NCBI RefSeq assembly: GCF_003634755.1
Contig: NZ_RBXA01000001.1
Span: 62,001 to 126,000, forward strand
Direction: 5' to 3'
DNA: 64,000 nucleotides
DNA from: Flavobacterium limicola
GTDB lineage: Bacteria; Bacteroidota; Bacteroidia; Flavobacteriales; Flavobacteriaceae
Shown here in pieces: positions 7,344-12,674 of this stretch. Each line of letters starts with the position of its first letter. The first letter of the stretch is position 1. The position numbers and the translations under genes were made by a program. Below the pieces are notes generated by a model. The model searched no databases. It saw nothing but the letters and a program-made list of their open reading frames with translations, and had not been told where the DNA came from.

Positions 7344-7946
7344 TTAGTAAACCACTGTCCTATTTCGTTTCTTTAAATAATGATGCCATAAAAGATAGGT
7401 TGCGTAAGAACGATACGGACTCCATTGTTCAGCATGAATTTCCATGGCGTCTTTATCATGAATATCTAGTAATTCTTTTATGGTATTTATTACCGCAATA
7501 TCTCCTAAAGGCAATAAATCCGGGGATTCCAGACAAAACATTAAGTAAATATCGATGGTCCAGTTTCCTATTCCTTTGATTTTTATGAGCTCTTCGCGTA
7601 CTTGCTGAGCCGTTTTGGTTGGCAAACTTTCTAAATCTAACTCTTTATTTAATAGCGCTGTCGCCAAAGCTTTGATATAAGACGTTTTTTGTCGGCTTAC
7701 GCCAAGATTCCTAAATTCCTCGTCAGATATTTGAAGAAGAACTTCGGGTGCTATGGCTTTTTGACTGGCTTTTATTTTTAAGAAAGTGGCTTTCGCCGAA
7801 TCTATCGAAACTTGTTGTTCTAAAATCAACAATACCAATGTCTCAAAACCTTGTGGTCTTTTGGGAATTATTGGCATTCCGTATTGTTCAATAATTGACT
7901 TGAAAATAGTATCTTTTTCTAAAAGGTAGTCTATGGCTTCTTGCAT
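7344..7946 (-). CDS. DNA-3-methyladenine glycosylase-like protein (HhH-GPD)
   Basis: A 200-residue base-excision repair protein of the AlkA-like HhH-GPD superfamily, which removes alkylated bases from DNA. The helix-hairpin-helix segment IKGIGNWTIDIYLMF is at about 123-137. The catalytic Asp is most likely D149 in the loop PLGDIAV. The N-terminal half has the family block VLLILEQQVS. It is shorter than E. coli AlkA (282) because it lacks the N-terminal mixed alpha/beta domain, as many bacterial homologues do. The start at 7946 is only 18 bases from the dispersed hairpin element at 7964-8048. Confidence 0.88.
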   Translation of the reverse strand: MQEAIDYLLEKDTIFKSIIEQYGMPIIPKRPQGFETLVLLILEQQVSIDSAKATFLKIKASQKAIAPEVLLQISDEEFRNLGVSRQKTSYIKALATALLNKELDLESLPTKTAQQVREELIKIKGIGNWTIDIYLMFCLESPDLLPLGDIAVINTIKELLDIHDKDAMEIHAEQWSPYRSYATYLLWHHYLKKRNRTVVY

Positions 7947-7963
7947 AATCAGATATTTTTTTT

Positions 7964-8048
7964 TAGCCCAGATGGAAACGGCATCCTTTTTATAAGGCGA
8001 TTTTTTTCGCCTTATAAAAAGATATAGTGTACAGCTGGAATGGCTCCT
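7964..8048 (+). repeat. dispersed structured element, copy A
   Basis: The plus-strand reading begins TAGCCCAGATGG, continues CGGCATCC, has a 15-base perfect stem (7986-8000 with 8007-8021, loop of six T), then GATATAG and ends GGAATGGCTCCT. The same flanking blocks occur, on the other strand, at 11745-11826 with a completely different hairpin sequence. Outer pairings AGCC/GGCT and CCAG/CTGG can also form. It lies antisense between two minus-strand genes. It could be a structured RNA such as a Flavo-1-like motif, or a small non-autonomous mobile element; this is inference. Confidence 0.7.
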
Positions 8049-10539
8049 AAAAATTAAACCCGAACGATCCTTTTACAGTAAAACGATTCGTGTCCGGCGT
8101 ATTGAGATAATTGGCTCGCCATGCGAAATCGATGCGGAATACTTTGAAGATATTCCCAATTCCAGCGCTGTATTCCCAATAGCCTTTTTCAGGTGCATTG
8201 TATATTAAACCAGAAGCATTAATCGCTCTATTTTCATCAGAAATGGTTCCATAAACCCCTTTTACTGAGACAATTTCTCTCCAATTGAGTTTGCGCATGA
8301 ACGGTATTCTGGAAAAAATTCGGCCATTGAAATTGTGATTCCACTGCAAAGTAGCATATTGGTCTGACACAAACTCATAAAAATTAAGGTTGCTAAACGT
8401 GTTTTCTATAGTAAAATAGGTTTGATTTCCTGGAATAACGCTCAGTAATCCTAACGGCACTTTCCCGAAGGTTTTCCCCACTTCCATAATAATATTTGTT
8501 CTTCCTAAAGGCCCGATAATTATAGGTTGTTTATAATACAATTGTACTTTATCATATTTAAAATCACTATCCAAAAGCCCTTTGAATCCATGACTGTAAT
8601 TAATAAAGAAACGACTGAACGGACTGTCAACATTGCTTCTTTCAACTCCAAAACCTATCGTTTTTCTCTTTGGCGAATACTCAATCTGAAAGTTCGCTTC
8701 GGATTGTTTGACATCACTTTTAGTAATAGAGTTTGCTATATCCGTATAATAATCTAAACTAAAAGTTGGCGATGCGGACTCCAGCGTACGGTACGAAATA
8801 CCAGCTTGGAAAATCAAATTTTTAACAGGCTCCATTTCTATCGCCATATTGGTCAAATTGATATTAGTCAATTTCCCGTTGCTACCGGACGAAAATACGG
8901 AGGACGAAGCAAAACTTCTGCCCAAAACATCGTTCGTAGTGGTTAAACTGGCGCCTATTTGTTCAATGTCGCGCCTATTTCCTCCGGACAAAATAATGCG
9001 GTTTTTTTTATCGACCATCCATTTTCCTGAAAATCCATATTTAAATTTATCGTCATTAAACCCATACGCTGTGTAGGCTTGAATACGCCAAGGATCATTA
9101 GGTCCAAAATAGGTTCTTCCTCCCACTCGCAATCGCACTCCTTCGACTTCATTGTATCCAAATGTGGAAAAAACAGGTCCGTAATCGAAGTTTTTAAATT
9201 CTACATAACCGCTTCCTAGTATGGAAACTAAGCTGTACAATTGTTTAAATTTATTTACAGTTTGCAATGTATCCAGCATTTTATAAACGCCTAATTCATC
9301 CTTGCTTAGGTTTTCAAAACGGTTTTCATTCCAGTACTCATTGGATTTATTGTAGACTTCATCATCCATATAATTGACTTCATCTTTATAAAAAGCATCC
9401 GGCAATTCTTTATTGAATTGATGGTTTCTATAAAAACTAGTTCGTTTTCCATAAACGCCTTTGGAATTTTCTTTTTTGTTCAAAGCAAAATCGGACATTA
9501 AATAATCCTTAGTCAATAAGAAAACAGAGTCACTGACCACTTCAAATTCCTGCTCTAAGTAAATATCTTTTACCCAGTTGATATTGGCGCTTTTGGTAAC
9601 AGCCATATTAATTTTCTTGATGGCAAATGTCGAATCATTCACCCAGAAATCCCCTTTGAAAGTCAATTCGTTTTTACGTCTTGGATAAAAAACAATATTA
9701 TAACACCATTTATTGTCAATATACGCACTGTCTTTCAAGACATAATTATAAACATCAATTCCTGTTTTAGACAATGGACTGGTAAAACTTTTGTCAAAAA
9801 AAGTCAAGTAATTATTGTAAATATTATAATCTGAATACAAGTCTTTTACAAAAGATAAAATTTGTTGATTCCCATTGAAACCAGATGTTTTATTGGCTTT
9901 TATTTTCTCTTTTACTTTCTTTAATTTGTTGTCTCCATAAACATCATTGAGAGATTCATTTATAAAAATAGGCAAATAGGTTTTCCCGGTTACTCTGGAA
10001 GTATCCATTTGATCGAATATAAATTCCATGCCTTTGAAAAGCTTACTTTTCATAAAAGCACTATCAATAGAGTTCATGTCAAATTCTATTTTTTCATACT
10101 TTTCCATCTGGTATTGATCAAACTGATACAACCCATTTTTACGCTTTCTTTCCCAAATTTTTCTTAGGATGTCTAGTGCCGGATTGTTCTTTTTGGAAGT
10201 TTTTCCGGCAAAAACCACTACTTCATTTAAACTTTCGGCTTCATTCAGCTGGATTTTGAAATTATAATTTACCGGTTTATCCAAGATAATTTCTTTCTCA
10301 GAAAAACCTACCGAAGAGATAACTAAAGTAGTATGCGTTTTTTGAGATTCTAGGTAAAACTTACCGTCTTCATTAGTCACAATTCCTTCGCTGGAACCTT
10401 TGAAAACCACATTTGCAAATGGAATGGGTTGATTTTGTTTATCAACCACGACCCCACTCACTTTTGTTTGCGCAAAAACAGTACTTGCTGAGACCAATAA
10501 CAAAAGCACAAAAAACAAGAGATTCTTTTTCATAATCAT
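8047..10539 (-). CDS. DUF5686 and carboxypeptidase-like regulatory domain protein
   Basis: An 830-residue outer membrane-associated protein found in Bacteroidota; function unknown. It has a signal peptide (ending STVFAQ), a CarboxypepD_reg-like beta-sandwich at about 27-112 (VVDKQNQPIPFANVVF, VTNEDGKFYLE), then a long DUF5686 region rich in aromatic and Asn/Asp beta-strand segments. It ends in a barrel-like C-terminus with a terminal Phe (GSFGFNF), suggesting outer membrane insertion. Translation may start at 10539 or two codons later at 10533 (MKKNLLFF), which looks more like a normal signal peptide start. It stands alone after the pdhB terminator. Confidence 0.85.
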   Translation of the reverse strand: MIMKKNLLFFVLLLLVSASTVFAQTKVSGVVVDKQNQPIPFANVVFKGSSEGIVTNEDGKFYLESQKTHTTLVISSVGFSEKEIILDKPVNYNFKIQLNEAESLNEVVVFAGKTSKKNNPALDILRKIWERKRKNGLYQFDQYQMEKYEKIEFDMNSIDSAFMKSKLFKGMEFIFDQMDTSRVTGKTYLPIFINESLNDVYGDNKLKKVKEKIKANKTSGFNGNQQILSFVKDLYSDYNIYNNYLTFFDKSFTSPLSKTGIDVYNYVLKDSAYIDNKWCYNIVFYPRRKNELTFKGDFWVNDSTFAIKKINMAVTKSANINWVKDIYLEQEFEVVSDSVFLLTKDYLMSDFALNKKENSKGVYGKRTSFYRNHQFNKELPDAFYKDEVNYMDDEVYNKSNEYWNENRFENLSKDELGVYKMLDTLQTVNKFKQLYSLVSILGSGYVEFKNFDYGPVFSTFGYNEVEGVRLRVGGRTYFGPNDPWRIQAYTAYGFNDDKFKYGFSGKWMVDKKNRIILSGGNRRDIEQIGASLTTTNDVLGRSFASSSVFSSGSNGKLTNINLTNMAIEMEPVKNLIFQAGISYRTLESASPTFSLDYYTDIANSITKSDVKQSEANFQIEYSPKRKTIGFGVERSNVDSPFSRFFINYSHGFKGLLDSDFKYDKVQLYYKQPIIIGPLGRTNIIMEVGKTFGKVPLGLLSVIPGNQTYFTIENTFSNLNFYEFVSDQYATLQWNHNFNGRIFSRIPFMRKLNWREIVSVKGVYGTISDENRAINASGLIYNAPEKGYWEYSAGIGNIFKVFRIDFAWRANYLNTPDTNRFTVKGSFGFNF

Positions 10540-10657: not shown

Positions 10658-11638
10658 CTATTTTTTATACAGTACTTTTTTAACCGCTTTTACTACATCA
10701 CCAGCATTTGGCAACCATTCTTTCAATAAAACTGGAGAGTAAGGTGCTGGAGTATCCGCCGTTGTGATACGTTGAATAGGTGCATCCAAGAAATCAAAAG
10801 CGCGTTCTTGAACAATATAGGTAATTTCAGAAGCGACACTTGCAAAAGGCCAAGCTTCCTCAAGAACTACTAATCTGTTTGTTTTTTTAACCGATGTTAA
10901 AATCGTCTCATAATCCATAGGACGTACCGTTCTCAAATCGATAATTTCACAAGAAATTCCTTCTTTGGCTAATTCGTCAGCAGCAATATGTGCTTCTTTG
11001 ATAATTTTACCGAAAGAAACAATCGTTACATCCGTACCTTCACGCTTGATATCCGCAACTCCTAACGGAATTACATATTCACCATCTGGAACTTCTCCTT
11101 TATCGCCATACATTTGTTCTGATTCCATGAAAATCACAGGATCGTTATCACGAATAGCCGCTTTCAACAAACCTTTAGCATCATAAACCGTAGATGGAAC
11201 TACTACTTTAAGACCTGGAGTATTCGCAAACCAGTTTTCTAATGCTTGTGAGTGTGTCGCTCCTAATTGTCCTGCCGAAGCTGTTGGACCACGAAAAACG
11301 ATTGGTACATTAAATTGTCCTCCGGTCATCTGACGCATTTTGGCAGCATTGTTTATGATTTGGTCAATCCCAACTAAACAGAAATTGAACGTCATATATT
11401 CCACAATCGGTCTACATCCATTCATTGCCGATCCTACTGCAATACCAGTAAAACCAAGCTCAGCGATAGGAGTATCAATGACTCTTTTCTCGCCAAATTC
11501 AGCAAGCATTCCTTTAGATGCTTTATAGGCACCGTTATATTCTGCAACTTCTTCACCCATTAAGTATATTGACTCATCGTGACGCATTTCTTCACTCATC
11601 GCTTCGCAAATGGCCTCTCTAAATTGTATCGTTCTCAT
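10658..11638 (-). CDS. pdhB: pyruvate dehydrogenase E1 component, beta subunit
   Basis: A 326-residue transketolase-type subunit that, with the E1 alpha subunit, decarboxylates pyruvate (or a branched-chain 2-oxoacid) using thiamine diphosphate. Family blocks are visible: the ThDP-helper segment MGEEVAEYNGAYKAS (27-41), DTPIAELGFTGIAVGSAM, and the Transket_C half with IDLRTVRPMD and VVLEEAWP. The last motif and the EYNGAYK form favour pyruvate dehydrogenase over branched-chain enzymes. The alpha subunit and E2 are not in this window, so the complex genes are split. A TATTTTTG promoter box lies at 11670-11677 on the minus strand. Confidence 0.93.
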   Translation of the reverse strand: MRTIQFREAICEAMSEEMRHDESIYLMGEEVAEYNGAYKASKGMLAEFGEKRVIDTPIAELGFTGIAVGSAMNGCRPIVEYMTFNFCLVGIDQIINNAAKMRQMTGGQFNVPIVFRGPTASAGQLGATHSQALENWFANTPGLKVVVPSTVYDAKGLLKAAIRDNDPVIFMESEQMYGDKGEVPDGEYVIPLGVADIKREGTDVTIVSFGKIIKEAHIAADELAKEGISCEIIDLRTVRPMDYETILTSVKKTNRLVVLEEAWPFASVASEITYIVQERAFDFLDAPIQRITTADTPAPYSPVLLKEWLPNAGDVVKAVKKVLYKK

Positions 11639-11744: not shown

Positions 11745-11826
11745 AGGAGCTGTTTCCGGCTATCCGCTGTATCTTCCTGTGGCTAAAGGAGCCACAAGAA
11801 GGATGCCGCTGCTATCCGGGCTACGA
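11745..11826 (-). repeat. dispersed structured element, copy B
   Basis: On the minus strand it reads TAGCCCGGATAG, CGGCATCCTT, a hairpin with arms CTTCTTGTGGCT and AGCCACAGGAAG, then GATACAG and GGAAACAGCTCCT. The blocks outside the hairpin align with copy A at 7964-8048, while the hairpin is unrelated in sequence yet still fully pairs with one G-U. CCGG/CCGG replaces CCAG/CTGG of copy A, a compensatory change. It lies upstream of both divergent promoters (pdhB and etfB), so neither gene need transcribe it. Confidence 0.7.
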
Positions 11827-11851
11827 AATCGAAATAGTATTAAAAAAATAT

Positions 11852-11863
11852 TATGCATGCATA
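11852..11863. promoter_or_regulatory. palindromic site upstream of etfB
   Basis: TATGCATGCATA is a perfect 12-base palindrome 23 bases before the etfB -7 box, covering the place where a -33 element or an operator would sit. No regulator is implied by the sequence. Confidence 0.3.
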
Positions 11864-11886
11864 GTATATTATTCGAATTAATATTT

Positions 11887-11927: not shown

Positions 11928-12674
11928 ATGAAAATATTAGTTTGCATCAGTCACGTTCCTGATACTACTTCAAAAATTAACTTTGTCAACGGTGATTCTG
12001 AATTTGACACCAATGGAGTACAGTATGTAATCAATCCAAATGATGAATTTGGTTTAACACGTGCTATTTGGTTTCAAGAACAACAAGGCGCAACGGTTAC
12101 TGTTGTAAATGTTGGAGGACCAGAAACCGAACCAACTTTAAGAAAAGCATTAGCAATAGGCGCGAACGAAGCTATTCGTGTGAACGCAACTCCTACTGAT
12201 GGATTTTTCGTTGCCAAACAACTTGCTGAAGTAATTAAAAACGGAGGTTACGATGTAATCATTGCCGGAAAAGAATCTTTAGACTATAATGGCGGAATGG
12301 TTCCTGGAATGATCGCTGGAATTTTAGGATACAACTTCCTAAACTCTTGCACTAACCTTACTGTTGACGGAACAAACGTAAAAGCTGTTCGTGAAATTGA
12401 CGGAGGAAAAGAAACTGTTGCTACTACTTTACCATTAATCATTGGTGGACAAAAAGGATTAGTGGAAGAAAAAGATTTGCGTATTCCTAACATGAGAGGA
12501 ATTATGACTGCAAGAACGAAAGCATTGACAATTCTGGAGCCAGTTGACGCTACTGTAAATACAAAAGCAGTAAAATTTGAAAAACCAGCTCCTAAATCAG
12601 CCGTGAAATTAATTGCTGCTGACAATTTAGATGAATTAATCAATTTATTACACAACGAAGCGAAAGTAATTTAG
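11928..12674 (+). CDS. etfB: electron transfer flavoprotein, beta subunit
   Basis: A 248-residue subunit that, with EtfA, forms the FAD-containing heterodimer carrying electrons from acyl-CoA dehydrogenases to the respiratory chain. Characteristic segments include the N-terminus MKILVCISHVPDT, INPNDEFGLTRAI near 37-49, and GKESLDYNGGMVPG near 107-120. The alpha subunit follows after a repeat-containing gap of about 100 bases, so the two are cotranscribed. Beta-oxidation or amino acid catabolism is the likely source of electrons; no dehydrogenase lies in the window. Confidence 0.95.
   Translation: MKILVCISHVPDTTSKINFVNGDSEFDTNGVQYVINPNDEFGLTRAIWFQEQQGATVTVVNVGGPETEPTLRKALAIGANEAIRVNATPTDGFFVAKQLAEVIKNGGYDVIIAGKESLDYNGGMVPGMIAGILGYNFLNSCTNLTVDGTNVKAVREIDGGKETVATTLPLIIGGQKGLVEEKDLRIPNMRGIMTARTKALTILEPVDATVNTKAVKFEKPAPKSAVKLIAADNLDELINLLHNEAKVI

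Follow-up and report, generated by a model that had tools for sequence, protein, structure and literature searches.

Flavo-1 elements of Flavobacterium retain their backbone while their terminal hairpins are replaced at fixed sites

The two structured elements discussed here, which lie in the window (the whole 64,000-nucleotide stretch of Flavobacterium limicola DNA that was analysed), are certainly copies of Flavo-1, a motif described in 2010 by Weinberg et al. (PMC2864571) and without an assigned function since. What is kept at a Flavo-1 site is the backbone and the ability of the hairpin to pair, not the sequence of the hairpin: whole arms are swapped at fixed sites, an unusual mode of sequence evolution. 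Copy number, covariation, hairpin replacement that preserves the site, lineage pools of arms, occupied and empty sites, decayed copies and a strand asymmetry in pairing were all observed directly. On balance, we consider it rather probable that Flavo-1 is a non-autonomous, REP-like DNA hairpin of the Flavobacteriales, read as folded single-stranded DNA and carrying an exchangeable module at its tip, and not a family of small RNA genes.

Copies A and B share the backbone and structure of Rfam Flavo-1 (RF01705) and score far above its gathering threshold of 42 bits over the full model. The preliminary description had offered a Flavo-1-like RNA motif as one candidate, and the element is Flavo-1 proper. 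The blocks which that description named (TAGCCC, CGGCATCC, GATA and GCTCCT) are all in place, the two arms of copy A pair perfectly around six T (15 pairs with the flanking C/G counted), as it had claimed, and it was correct that CCAG/CTGG in copy A corresponds to CCGG/CCGG in copy B. The features of the two sites are:

7344-7946, minus strand: HhH-GPD DNA-repair gene flanking copy A (open reading frames, Pfam HhH-GPD)
7961-8045, plus strand: Flavo-1 copy A (RF01705, 73.0 bits, E 3.9e-14)
7964-7986, plus strand: 5' backbone of copy A, TAGCCC-A-GATGGAAACGGCATCC, with the invariant TAG, the covarying N of CCNG, N of GATN and RY, and the bulged C
7964-7969, plus strand: TAGCCC block of copy A
ending at 7986, plus strand: block CGGCATCC of copy A
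7987-8020, plus strand: exchangeable terminal hairpin of copy A (arms 7987-8000 and 8007-8020, loop 8001-8006)
8021-8048, plus strand: 3' backbone of copy A, GATATAGTGTACAGCTGGA, then tail ATGGCTCCT
8021-8024 and 8043-8048, plus strand: GATA and GCTCCT of copy A
8047-10539, minus strand: DUF5686 gene flanking copy A (open reading frames, Pfam DUF5686)
10658-11638, minus strand: transketolase-type E1 beta subunit gene flanking copy B (open reading frames, Pfam)
11749-11826, minus strand: Flavo-1 copy B (RF01705, 70.9 bits, E 1.5e-13)
11774-11800, minus strand: copy B terminal hairpin, which reads TTCTTGTGGCTCCTTTAGCCACAGGAA along the element strand
11928-12674, plus strand: ETF subunit gene flanking copy B (open reading frames, Pfam)

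Copy A takes up almost the whole gap between the HhH-GPD and DUF5686 genes, and its final bases run into the stop codon of the latter. Copy B sits between the divergent E1 beta and ETF subunit genes. Folding z-scores on the Flavo-1 strand range from -3.0 to -4.8; with the copy number and the structure scores given below, they show that the element is no product of chance. Directly before copy B (about 11820-11835; upstream of the E1 beta gene in L040-L107) lies a conserved TATATCGATTTCGTA-like stretch, which is also present in many species that have no element at site B. The same intergenic region contains a conserved palindrome, ACTATGCATGCATA (about 11850-11865, and in the orthologous loci too), which is probably the operator of a regulator.

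The genome to which the window belongs (3.3 Mb in 12 contigs) contains 89 Flavo-1 copies at a threshold of E below 1e-3; F. ranwuense has 90 and F. succinicans 123. The further genomic copies on which the preliminary description had staked its reading thus exist. Among 24 Flavobacterium congeners the count varies from 0 to 88, with two genomes at zero, and most Flavobacterium genomes searched carry dozens of copies. As a control, 14 genomes outside the group were searched, and none contained Flavo-1. Comparing the genomes that carry about 100 copies with those that carry none could help to trace the factor involved. The genome G010 is a single contig; in this genome, which has about 59 copies in 3.45 Mb, 420 kb (C1 1.574-1.993 Mb) are free of Flavo-1, and a hand count of orientation relative to the replication fork gave 36 versus 23 copies (p 0.12).

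The lower backbone is made up of TAG, CCNG/CNGG, GATN/NA, RY/RY, A-G mismatches and one bulged C, with the terminal hairpin on top. TAGCCC, GAT, several single bases and the bulged C are invariant across 28 aligned copies, and the N-N' pair of CCNG/CNGG occurs in all four Watson-Crick forms. Two-sided changes are found at 14 of 20 pairs in these 28 copies and at 18 of 20 in an alignment of 89, with structure scores of 0.695 (0.21 in shuffles, at most 0.13 with slid partners) and 0.661 (0.20 in shuffles), respectively. Covariation of the kind that the preliminary description predicted for many copies is therefore present, and its claim of selection on structure holds for the backbone pairs. The bulged C and the A-G mismatches persist despite this turnover of pairs, and since these appositions and the bulge are kept, simple palindrome repair fails to explain the backbone.

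The arms behave differently. That description had also read the unlike arms of copies A and B as compensatory change, but ordinary compensatory substitution in an RNA is not the best reading here, because the whole arm has been replaced at 13 of 31 orthologous sites between species that are 86% identical. These sites come from a comparison with F. ranwuense (86.5% identity to the window's genome over 19 kb in common), which has an orthologous copy for about 50 of 87 loci; at 31 of them the element could be parsed on both sides, and an arm was scored as replaced when its identity was under 70%. Over the 31 sites the backbone is 89% identical and the arms 74%; at the 13, the terminal hairpin has been swapped for an unrelated near-perfect palindrome on a backbone that is still 86% identical. 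Alignments place the boundaries of replacement inside the element (e.g. L242/L326 and L004/L306), and the new arm in the pair L003/L328, TGTCATTGCGAGGAACGAAGCAATC, resembles a different palindromic repeat.

Sites A and B were also compared over 80 orthologous loci around the E1 beta gene. Several species carry Flavo-1 at both sites, unchanged in orientation but with different arms. Site A holds a recognisable Flavo-1 with mostly different arms in more than 10 species, is decayed in L055, and is empty in L068, L085, L089 and L094, where 1 or 3 bases separate the genes; a decayed copy remains at site B in F. hiemivividum (L044). F. succinicans has one and the same arm at sites A and B, on different backbones. 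The pools of arms are lineage-specific: 63% of the arms of F. succinicans have a near-identical partner within their own genome versus 10-30% in others, and for G010 the corresponding values are 47% and 3-23%. Between the window's genome and F. ranwuense no clean empty site was found, the candidate regions being rearranged or containing decayed copies, and neither a target duplication nor a very recent insertion was caught. As many sites are common to species at 86% identity, transposition is not frequent now.

The lack of a recent insertion, the sites shared at 86% identity and the failure to find a mobilising gene all count against reading Flavo-1 as a DNA repeat, and strong conservation of pairing is equally expected of a functional RNA. 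Flavo-1 could be a genuine structured RNA, either an sRNA or a cis-element in transcripts, whose arms vary as the stem alone matters and whose dispersal is secondary. Rfam types it as an sRNA, Weinberg et al. grade it 'probably' an RNA (PMC2864571), and the strong covariation would fit. The base pairs themselves bear on both sides of the question. Were the two strands equivalent, strand-symmetric mutation would make G-U and A-C appositions about equally frequent; on the Flavo-1 strand of 194 copies they number 81 and 21 (p 1.7e-9), so this strand is probably the one that folds, an excess that an RNA would also produce. However, G-U accounts for only 2.6% of Flavo-1 arm pairs, whereas its share in tRNA stems (12 tRNAs of these same loci) is 9.3%. 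The copies were collected with a covariance model and a pattern, a procedure that favours pairing and, somewhat, G-U, and this sampling could partly account for both the low G-U share and the excess over A-C. Under DNA energies, the Flavo-1 strand is more stable than its complement in 95% of 179 copies, with 6.0 pairs in the outer stem versus 2.2 on the complement, while under RNA energies the lower stem forms on both strands.

Genomic context argues against the RNA interpretation. Nearly all copies in four genomes are intergenic (one overlaps a 74-codon frame), and the flanking genes, taken from simple ORF calls, form 42 divergent, 30 convergent and 128 tandem pairs. A UTR or cis-acting RNA would share the orientation of the flanking transcripts, but in the tandem pairs the Flavo-1 strand is antisense in 83 cases and sense in 45 (58 and 35 with the sister genome left out, p 0.02). 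The promoter motif TANNTTTG is found upstream of the element strand in 9 of 87 stretches versus 7.2 in shuffles, and near matches to it in 53 versus 53.7; a promoter feeding an sRNA was rejected on this lack of enrichment. In the F. psychrophilum transcriptome, several copies lie within transcribed 5' regions, but matches occur 'indistinctly' in sense or antisense and many are outside transcribed regions (PMC9723704). The replacement of arms as blocks and the existence of genomes with zero copies also speak against a structured RNA, and we regard this explanation as unlikely. The sRNA label is not supported by the tests made here. Rfam catalogues Flavo-1 as an sRNA gene; its behaviour in these genomes is that of a dispersed DNA repeat whose arms are replaced as blocks. 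Of the two candidates originally put forward, an RNA motif and a mobile hairpin element, the latter does better on gene context, strand bias and the missing promoter, and falls short in that no mobilising gene was found. If Flavo-1 is a DNA repeat, it has been misannotated as an sRNA gene, and it shows that covariation by itself does not prove an RNA.

The known systems most like Flavo-1 are the REPs and REPINs with their RAYTs: these too are short, intergenic, imperfect palindromes in tens to hundreds of copies, with lineage-specific families, one folding strand and probable non-autonomy (PMC3116915, PMC2817692, PMC3733652). REPs are tagged with GTAG or CGTC, occur chiefly where the flanking genes are tandem or convergent, and frequently contain G-T pairs (PMC3733652). 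Flavo-1 could itself be a classical REP/REPIN whose single strand is folded and cut by a RAYT (Y1 transposase), and it shares with them the intergenic, imperfect palindrome in about 100 copies, one strand of which folds; its 5' foot also carries an unpaired TAG that does not vary. Unlike REPs, it has the TAG only (invariant in 28 copies, with G as the preceding base in 1 of 62, and no GTAG or CGTC), no convergent bias and few G-U pairs; its arms are exchanged freely, and no RAYT follows it across genomes.

The last point comes from searching one set of 40 relatives for Y1 (PF01797), Y2 (PF04986) and reverse transcriptase (PF00078), with 12 further genomes added for Y1. Several high-copy genomes have RAYT-like Y1 genes as single copies, but Y1 has no match in the genomes with 88 and 44 Flavo-1 copies and none intact in the window's genome, and the sole Y1 of F. 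succinicans (123 copies) is IS200-type. Flavo-1 is also not concentrated beside Y1 genes, and no RAYT gene flanked by it was found, so that Y1/RAYT was rejected as the mobiliser. That Flavo-1 is a classical REP therefore seems to us quite improbable; as it fails the tests of tag and RAYT, we describe it as working like a REP and do not file it as one. Y2 is present only in the window's own genome, and reverse transcriptase, which would have pointed to mobilisation by a group II intron or a retron, is absent from genomes that carry 73, 59, 37 and 79 copies. None of the three tracks copy number, each being absent from genomes with dozens of copies, and no gene travels with Flavo-1: only common protein families recur beside its copies. 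Either the mobiliser lies outside the families tested, or recombination alone now alters the copies. Two gene remnants were noted in passing. A congener with zero Flavo-1 has only a broken Y1/RAYT-like gene (G018 C17:354885), a suggestive pattern which other genomes break, and the window's genome contains a Y1 transposase-like fragment (G000:C1:574984-575169) about 3 kb from a Flavo-1 copy.

If Flavo-1 were a transcription terminator, or a protector of mRNA 3' ends, that had spread by copying, its strong hairpins would fit, and so would the tandem pairs in which the element often begins less than 50 bases past the upstream stop codon (median 43 in the window's genome). But copies between divergent genes (42) are no rarer than those between convergent ones (30), on which ground an intrinsic terminator was rejected, the 28-copy alignment has no T-run after the hairpin on the Flavo-1 strand, and the conserved mismatches and bulge would be needless, making this explanation very improbable indeed.

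If Flavo-1 is a DNA repeat, as we favour, the unit would be one DNA strand folded as an imperfect stem, whose conserved lower backbone bears the terminal hairpin, and the relevant form would be single-stranded. The partners in an exchange of hairpins may be other copies or palindromic repeats of another kind, perhaps through annealing at short homologies or a switch of template while replication unwinds the strand. Some factor would read the folded backbone and spread or maintain the copies, a role like the one proposed for RAYT transposases with REPs. A more specific proposal, which we offer as possible but doubtful, is that an enzyme, or single-strand annealing at replication forks, recognises the folded backbone by its A-G mismatches, bulged C and 5' TAG and swaps the terminal palindrome for that of a different copy or repeat, the hairpins then being a moving, lineage-specific pool on fixed sites. 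The attC sites of integrons are recognised as a folded single strand with extrahelical bases, and their terminal structure varies freely. Recognition of Flavo-1 would likewise depend on a folded single strand, but we noticed no attC box consensus, no arrays and no cassettes. In the part of the literature that was searchable, a description was found neither of arm exchange in Flavo-1 nor of the subfamily presented below; on hairpin-arm exchange in bacterial palindromes the REPIN paper alone surfaced.

The outer part is of another kind, with the layout GCGTGA-GGGATNG...ANAGCC-CGACC-[second hairpin]-TCACGC, in about 20 copies of the window's genome (L244, L255, L256, L257, L266, L275, L283 and others) and in 31 when all loci are counted. 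In 30 of the 31 it closes by a stem of 5-6 base pairs of the GCGTGA/TCACGC kind. The closing stem exists in seven versions (GCGTGA, GCGTAA, GCGTTA, GCATGA, GCACA, GTGTG and GCGCAA), each of which has its own complement 7-58 bases past the core. As predicted from these sequences, the subfamily forms a three-way junction, in which two arms are variable and the closing stem covaries. It reaches beyond the Rfam model, outside which the second variable hairpin, following CGACC, falls.

Flavo-1 resembles composite palindromic repeats such as BIMEs and BOX elements in that other small palindromes sit inside its loops, as seen in L393 compared with L026 and at site A of L043, and differs in that these inserts extend or replace the hairpin arms and the composite still folds. 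The small palindromic repeats TGTCATTGCGAGGAACGAAGCAATC, ACGAGCGAAGCGAACTGACGAAGT and TTCAGTGAACTTCGTTTGAAG were observed within Flavo-1 loops or in place of an arm in L328 (near 1540), L393 (15080-15410) and site A of L043.
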